A model generated the notes under the pieces. It was given only the letters and a program-made list of their open reading frames with translations. It was not told where the DNA came from and did no database searches. Positions 56,288 through 57,590 of a DNA stretch of 64,000 bases are shown piece after piece (the first letter of the stretch is position 1; the number at the start of each line of letters is the position of its first letter). The stretch comes from Meghimatium bilineatum. Lineage: Eukaryota; Mollusca; Gastropoda; Stylommatophora; Philomycidae. The stretch lies in assembly GCA_034231615.1 (NCBI GenBank), contig CM067309.1, forward strand, positions 43,148,181 through 43,212,180, given 5' to 3'. A program made the position numbers and the translations under genes.

Positions 56288-56449
56288 CAAAGGAAATTTG
56301 ATCATTATGGCAATTGCACGGCCACCTGGTATGGACTTTGATCACAATTGGCCAGAGAGCACAGAATGTCTGACACTAGACTTTGGCCCCTTTGAGACAG
56401 TTCACATGTGGAAACCTATGCCAGAGTGTGATGAGTTTGTAGGAGCAAG
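56288..56449 (+). CDS. LZTR1: LZTR1 first coding exon
   Basis: The exon follows TTGATTGTAG and ends before donor GTTAGT. The most likely start is the ATG at 56307 ([18 protein letters not shown]); an in-frame ATG at 56253 exists but lies before the acceptor. It continues [18 protein letters not shown] and DEFVGAR. Human LZTR1 has DFDHSC..., [14 protein letters not shown] and [16 protein letters not shown] at the same place, so the identity is firm. LZTR1 is a Kelch/BTB-BACK adaptor of CUL3 that drives ubiquitination of RAS-family GTPases such as RIT1 and MRAS. The exon's last bases and donor are repeated about 19 times in the following intron. Confidence 0.95.
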
Positions 56450-57590
56450 GTTAGTAAGTGCTATTTTGTTGAAGGCATCTGTGCAAGCAAACATAGTTTT
56501 GTAGGAGCAAGGTTAGCAAGTGCTATTTTGTTGAAGGCATCTGTGCAAGCAAATATAGTTTTGTAGGAGCAAGGTTAGTAAGTGCTATTTTGTTGAAGGC
56601 ATCTGTGCAAGCAAACATAGTTTTGTAGGAGCAAGGTTAGCAAGTGCTATTTGTTGAAGGCATCTGTGCAAGCAAACATAGTTTTGTAGGAGCAAGGTTA
56701 GCAAGTGCTATTTGTTGAAGGCATCTGTACAAGCAAACATAGTTTTGTAGGAGCAAGGTTAGTAAGTGCTATTTTGTTGAAGGCATCTGTGCAAGCAAAC
56801 ATAGTTTTGTAGGAGCAAGGTTAGTAAGTGCTATTTTGTTGAAGGCATCTGTGCAAGCAAACATAGTTTTGTAGGAGCAAGGTTAGCAAGTGCTATTTTG
56901 TTGAAGGCATCTGTGCAAGCAAACATAGTTTTGTAGGAGCAAGGTTAGCAAGTGCTATTTGTGTGCAAGCAAACATAGTTTTGTAGGAGCAAGGTTAGTA
57001 AGTGCTATTTTGTTGAAGGCATCTGTGCAAGCAAACATAGTTTTGTAGGAACAAGGTTAGCAAGTGCTATTTTGTTGAAGGCATCTGTGCAAGCAAACAT
57101 AGTTTTGTAGGAGCAAGGTTAGCAAGTGCTATTTGTTGAAGGCATCTGTGCAAGCAAACATAGTTTTGTAGGAGCAAGGTTAGTAAGTGCTATTTTGTTG
57201 AAGGCATCTGTGCAAGCAAACATAGTTTTGTAGGAGCAAGGTTAGTAAGTGCTATTTTGTTGAAGGCATCTGTGCAAGCAAACATAGTTTTGTAGGAGCA
57301 AGGTTAGTAAGTGCTATTTTGTTGAAGGCATCTGTGCAAGCAAACATAGTTTTGTAGGAGCAAGGTTAGTAAGTGCTATTTGTGTGCAAGCAAACATAGT
57401 TTTGTAGGAGCAAGGTTAGCAAGTGCTATTTGTTGAAGGCATCTGTGCAAGCAAACATAGTTTTGTAGGAGCAAGGTTAGTAAGTGCTATTTTGTTGAAG
57501 GCATCTGTGCAAGCAAACATAGTTTTGTAGGAGCAAGGTTAGCAAGTGCTATTTGTTGAAGGCATCTGTGCAAGCAAACATAGTTTTGAA
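56435..57590. repeat. Tandem array, about 62-bp unit, about 19 copies, carrying the LZTR1 exon 1 end and donor
   Basis: Each unit has TTTGTAGGAGCAAG, identical to the last exon bases, then GTTAG(T/C)AAGTGCTATTTTG, then TTGAAGGCATCTGTGCAAGC and AAACATAG. Units with TTTTG or TTTG, and a short form lacking TTGAAGGCATC, occur. The first unit is the real exon-intron border. Confidence 0.97.

Follow-up and report, generated by a model that had tools for sequence, protein, structure and literature searches.

The window analysed here is a 64,000-nucleotide stretch of the gastropod Meghimatium bilineatum (assembly GCA_034231615.1, contig CM067309.1). It holds exons of LZTR1 and of MRPL16, which encodes a mitochondrial ribosomal protein, and at three exon ends in these two genes the 5′ splice site (donor) lies in the first unit of a tandem array. 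When Tandem Repeats Finder (TRF) was run on the 64-kb window, the LZTR1 array was placed at 56436–57588 with a period of 62 bp and 19.1 copies. The first copy begins within the coding exon, where GATGAG is followed by TTTGTAGGAGCAAG as the exon end and, across the junction, by GTTAGTAAG, the intron side being GTTAG. The first unit takes in the final 14 nt of exon 1 of LZTR1 together with the 5′ splice site. The array contains 19 copies of the donor, ten as AAGGTTAGT and nine as AAGGTTAGC. The exon frame upstream of the array ends in CDEFVGA(R), and 61475–61537 carries on in phase from this (R). The peptide joined over the junction matched residues 31–69 of PDB 9mey (leucine-zipper-like transcriptional regulator 1) with E=1.7e-28, and the match runs across the exon–exon junction. 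A 19-copy array at the border of LZTR1 exon 1, as described in an earlier note on this DNA, was thus confirmed.

The same note had counted three donors in two genes inside three arrays. We take its two further cases to be successive exons of MRPL16, which lies on the minus strand, with the donors CAG/GTAATT at 35839 (array 35644–35880) and CAG/GTGAGA at 34171 (array 33171–34182). When three MRPL16 exons were joined at their first donors, the product was colinear with mitochondrial uL16 (uL16m) over both junctions (E=7.8e-45), and the count holds, with the junctions of both genes confirmed by protein alignment. Genome searches found no second copy of LZTR1 and none of MRPL16, so none of the three arrays can be dated by that route.

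The claim that no system of this kind had been described did not survive a look at the literature. Tandem repeats across exon–intron boundaries were first described in amphioxus, where those of Adh3 were given the name mirages; others were reported for globins (PMC3087553), namely BflGb6 and BflGb9 (PMC3087553, PMC3902484), and also for TnC and PGBD5 (PMC3902484). Splicing was reported to be undisturbed, array lengths to vary, at Adh3 even somatically, and the mechanism was called unclear; mirages were described as a possibly general phenomenon of cephalochordates (PMC3087553). We refer to the arrays found here as mirage-type.

Three of the four donors identified in the window lie in a first unit, compared to 3.7% of positions in the background (binomial 2e-4), but this statistic is biased because the window was selected for these three cases. 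The earlier note had also set the chance expectation too low for this window, where arrays take up 28% of the bases (TRF rows merged, score of at least 50), compared to 10.8% in 61 fetched loci at a laxer TRF score of at least 40; one of these 61 loci, L001, is outside all donor and acceptor counts given below. Furthermore, a motif listing showed donor-like words in many arrays of the window without a known exon, and the motif alone is therefore no evidence.

Frequency of arrays at sampled donors

The genome-wide comparison of arrays and 5′ splice sites proposed in the earlier note was run in sampled form in the window's own genome, the assembly of which comprises 1.61 Gb in 32 contigs. Exons were taken from a genome search with Pfam PF00069, PF00118, PF00063 and PF00225, and the DNA around 240 of them was retrieved. 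Among the matches listed, these were 70 of 135 for kinases, 50 of 51 for CCT, 60 of 67 for myosins and 60 of 123 for kinesins, and the rows for kinesins and the late rows for kinases were chosen largely because they lacked stops, before their DNA was seen. Donors were called at 66 of 100 loci with a score of at least 6 and at 66 of 80 and 46 of 60 loci with a score of at least 5, giving 178 donors, and acceptors at 71 of 100 loci having both flanks. A donor was scored if the 24-mer spanning it (12 + 12, at most five mismatches) recurred nearby. The control was the first-unit rate at positions lying 200 bp or more downstream of these donors, and some of these positions may fall outside the intron. 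Flagged donors were read by hand, while control hits were left automated.

Eleven of the 178 donors were flagged, and two of these, L171 and L190, were dropped on reading as single weak copies. The nine that were kept (5.1%, Wilson interval 2.7–9.3%), or about one in 20 exon ends sampled, came from all four families, which are unrelated to one another: L004, L105 and L106 among kinases, L078 in CCT, L142 and L177 in myosins, and L197, L239 and L241 in kinesins. For the seven donors that scored among the first 132, the 24-mer recurred downstream only. By the 24-mer test, no acceptor started an array (0/71), a sample size at which a rate of a few per cent is possible. The difference between donors and acceptors gave a one-sided Fisher value of 0.046.

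The first-unit rate was 1.2% in the control (bootstrap 0.6–2.0%) and 1.0–1.3% in the flanks of all loci. For nine of 178 donors, P was 0.0004–0.0005 at the 1.2% control, 0.011 at 2.0%, the upper bootstrap bound, and 0.036 at 2.5%; with the duplicate pair L105/L106 counted once, these values became 0.002, 0.028 and 0.078. A cut-off of 6 throughout left eight of 169 donors and a cut-off of 7 left seven of 143. With the pair counted once and cut-offs of 5, 6 and 7, P was 0.028, 0.056 and 0.069 at the 2.0% control and 0.078, 0.13 and 0.15 at 2.5%. The sample before the kinesins were added gave P=0.05 (6/132) and P=0.12 (5/131) against 2.0%. An excess of donors over control positions is thus likely, with a P that spans 0.0004 to about 0.15 depending on the control, the cut-off and the counting of the pair. 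The part of the earlier note's claim that stands is a probable excess over random intronic positions; the harshest choices tried, giving 0.056 at cut-off 6 with a 2.0% control and 0.15 at cut-off 7 with 2.5%, make it weaker.

The positions of array starts were then compared in windows of 73 bp. An array started within −12 to +60 of the donor at 8/66 and 9/58 loci, within +61 to +133 at 10/66 and within +134 to +206 at 1/66. Taken together, near-donor windows had an array start in 27 of 190 cases and all deeper windows in 46 of 740 (odds ratio 2.5, p=0.0007), a value limited by the near range having been set after the profile was seen and by the windows of one locus not being independent. On the acceptor side the numbers were 11/142 near and 38/774 deep (p=0.16), and a direct comparison of donor-near and acceptor-near starts gave p=0.08. 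The nine donors with an array had ordinary strength, with a score of 8.99 compared to 8.81 for the other 169 (p=0.73). Since there was no spike on the splice site and donor strength was ordinary, the likely account is a more frequent birth of arrays close to intron 5′ ends, with some of them extending over the junction.

Anatomy of the units and other features of the window

In the 12 cases, three from the window and nine from the sample, the exon piece of the unit was about 11–44 nt long and the intron piece about 10–67 nt. Use of the second donor would introduce a stop or a frameshift in 11 of the 12, the exception being L004, where it would add 30 open nt. Thus, the intact protein would come from the first donor only, which should be the working one.

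Look-alike genes offered a view of the age of the arrays. L105 (on contig C7) and L106 (on C12), which by their motif we take to be GRK-like kinase genes, carry different, independent-looking units at the same donor, 32–33 bp and 25 bp, respectively. In the look-alikes L003 and L004 the donor is duplicated in L004 only, and L003 has a different array 24 nt further on. From these differences, donor arrays seem to arise recently and repeatedly. As to length instability, one haplotype was available here, and look-alike genes differ in the unit and in its presence. The array at the L142 myosin donor contains two unit types, one of them including about 40 nt from the exon end, which would fit two rounds of duplication of this donor with borders that differed.

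Two arrays on the acceptor side of MRPL16 exons, listed with the other features in Table 1, have consensus units with branch-point-like CTAA motifs and no AG. The TACTAAA motif in the array at 34442–34666 may serve as a branch point. The AG-free units fit a bar against extra acceptors, and two cases are no proof. A reading as recursive splice sites, with AG/GT after a pyrimidine tract, was judged by eye; it was best in the second of the MRPL16 donor arrays (array 3) and seemed unsuited to most cases.

Table 1. Exons and arrays at LZTR1 and MRPL16, in positions of the window
Feature	Position	Strand	Remarks
LZTR1 first coding exon as read here	56307..56449	+	ATG inferred; phase 2 at donor
Mirage-type array 1	56436..57588	+	about 62 bp x 19; unit of 14 nt exon end (56436–56449) and 48 nt intron; 19 donor copies
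LZTR1 next exon	61475..61537	+	its donor at 61538 lies outside any array
MRPL16 internal exon (VKYPERKRLK...QLQYGDYGIQ)	35840..35997	-	
Mirage-type array 2	35644..35880	-	53 bp x 4.5; unit of about 41 nt exon end and 12 nt intron; donor CAG/GTAATT
MRPL16 next exon (AVTGGRMNHK...VKPILLQ)	34172..34435	-	
Mirage-type array 3	33171..34182	-	37 bp units; 22.8 copies in 33171–33991, irregular further copies to 34182; exon piece about 11–13 nt; donor CAG/GTGAGA
MRPL16 last exon	31926..32120	-	ends approximate
Acceptor-side 41 bp array	34442..34666	-	stops 6 nt before the MRPL16 exon; consensus unit with branch-point-like TACTAAA and without AG on the coding strand
Acceptor-side 28 bp array	32156..32874	-	stops about 35 nt before the last MRPL16 exon; no AG in the coding-strand consensus unit

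Elsewhere in the window, a 41 bp array at 52163–52526 (unit beginning CTCCCACTGGATCTC) resembles, by eye, dispersed-repeat-like sequence at about 55690–55760, and from this likeness arrays may also begin inside transposon-like DNA. Tandem repeats that keep the frame lie within two long open frames, at 8588–9148 (60 bp x 4) and at 20909–21493 (33 bp x 5). The apparent last coding exon of another gene lies at 9756–10122 (with SSDTAELFVNCLEKAMMVEVCLPGDD), and a Pfam search with this gene gave no match. In the genome, many kinase exons have look-alikes on recurring contig pairs, as judged from the match table, for example C11/C13, C18/C19, C6/C20 and C14/C22, and this pattern suggests an old whole-genome duplication. 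Several land slugs and snails have 31 chromosomes, and a whole-genome duplication in the ancestors of Stylommatophora has been described; in Deroceras laeve, TRF added 28.39% of the genome (PMC12506671, PMC6802634).

Origin of the arrays and related systems

We consider it probable that these are minisatellites of the mirage type, produced by local tandem duplication of the ordinary sort in a genome rich in arrays, and tolerated at donors. A short local duplication of about 25–90 bp would by chance have included the end of an exon along with its 5′ splice site. The customary routes, slippage or unequal exchange, would then have multiplied the unit. Starts are perhaps denser near the 5′ ends of introns, about 2.5-fold in the first ~130 bp downstream of the donor in the sample. 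Splicing at the first donor would give a normal mRNA, with the later copies as decoys, and a donor duplication would survive because copy 1 keeps the exon end and the donor intact. A duplication over an acceptor would put an extra AG before the true one and would likely be removed. Such a filter by selection, like the use of the first donor, the route of duplication and the cause of the excess near exons, is what we infer from the pattern.

Several points weigh against this reading or soften it. Donor calls came from a weight matrix instead of an annotation, and that the first donor is the one used is a prediction from the frames. The contrast between donors and acceptors reached p=0.057 at donor cut-offs of 6 and 7, and the absence of acceptor cases among 71 is also compatible with a rate of about 1%, at which 0.9 would be expected. 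At +201 to +460 the first-unit rate was 1.6–2.5%, higher than the 1.2% used. Globin mirages in amphioxus occur at 5′ and 3′ boundaries, whereas the arrays found here were at donors only. In addition, the excess near exons could in part come from fewer transposons near exons.

It is possible, if unlikely, that chance and a filter are all that is needed, with arrays born uniformly in non-coding DNA and donors hit like any intron base and merely surviving. The array density of 28% in the window speaks for this, as do the P values obtained with the pair counted once, 0.028–0.069 at the 2.0% control and 0.078–0.15 at 2.5% over cut-offs 5–7, and the 5/131 before kinesins (P=0.12). The 9/178 donors set against 1.2% (P=0.0004–0.0005) and the crowding of starts near donors (27/190 vs 46/740, p=0.0007) argue for something more. 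Another view, that intron 5′ ends in this genome are a hot zone for the birth of tandem duplications, that several per cent of all 5′ splice sites head a minisatellite and that the cause is linked to transcription or exons, for example through breaks at exon edges or R-loops, and not to the splice signal, we hold to be doubtful.

The earlier note had looked to the splice site itself, where bound U1, R-loops or repair would set off the founding duplication. That donors yielded cases whereas the 71 acceptors yielded none is in line with such seeding, but its tie to the splice site was not borne out and we regard it as improbable: donor strength was ordinary both in the first six cases (p=0.95) and in all nine (8.99 vs 8.81, p=0.73), array starts were as frequent at +61 to +133 (10/66) as at −12 to +60 (8/66), and the profile had no sharp peak at the junction. 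The interpretation in that note was thus partly supported, and its observation confirmed. That extra donors were multiplied and kept for useful alternative splicing, as in human 6-16/IFI6, where repeat units serve as splice donors (PMC4526556), is very improbable, given that in 11 of 12 cases the extension would bring in a stop or a shift of frame and that look-alike genes have differing units. An artefact, in which collapsed or stuttering long reads made or lengthened the arrays, is the least credible explanation. The arrays are known here from the assembly alone, but variants distinguish the units of one array, look-alike genes carry unlike arrays, and the anatomy is shared by nine loci from four families.

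The preferred reading, mirage-type minisatellites tolerated at donors, places the arrays close to those of amphioxus. Both are minisatellite-like (62 bp x 19.1, 53 bp x 4.5 and 37 bp x 22.8 here, 10–72 bp units at Adh3), both have a unit that spans the exon–intron boundary of a real gene with an exon piece and a splice site (LZTR1, two MRPL16 exons and the nine sampled loci here), and both recur in several genes. They differ in the phylum and in that a frequency (9/178 sampled donors) is given here; conversely, splicing and length variation were examined in amphioxus, whereas the present arrays are known from sequence. What is new is that the arrays occur in another lineage, that a rate is given and that they seem biased towards donors. 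A genome-wide rate of donor-spanning arrays was not found in the literature searched, which covered few subscription journals.

Turri et al. (1995) reportedly described a minisatellite that gives multiple splice donors in human 6-16/IFI6 (G1P3). There too, the 5′ splice site is part of a tandem repeat that follows an exon (PMC4526556), but its downstream repeats are used as donors and yield protein isoforms, and such use would break 11 of the 12 proteins here. Internal tandem repeats of human duplicated genes likewise alter gene structure at exon ends through minisatellite expansion; they were found by comparing recent paralogs and were linked to new introns and alternative transcripts (PMC2812944). 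In intron gain by tandem duplication of AGGT segments, the duplication also copies splice signals (PMC4974935), whereas here the intron pre-exists and is lengthened, and no new intron was shown.

If intron 5′ ends were indeed a hot zone, the AG/GT that is usual in units copied over a donor would turn the arrays into permanent ladders of splice sites, decoy or recursive, and such arrays would feed intron lengthening and possibly intron gain. Mirage anatomy at about 5% of the sampled conserved donors in an apparently unrelated animal suggests a general product of minisatellite-rich genomes. It makes an anecdote countable: one can ask at which places duplications arise, which splice sites put up with them, and whether AG/GT arrays feed intron growth or gain.
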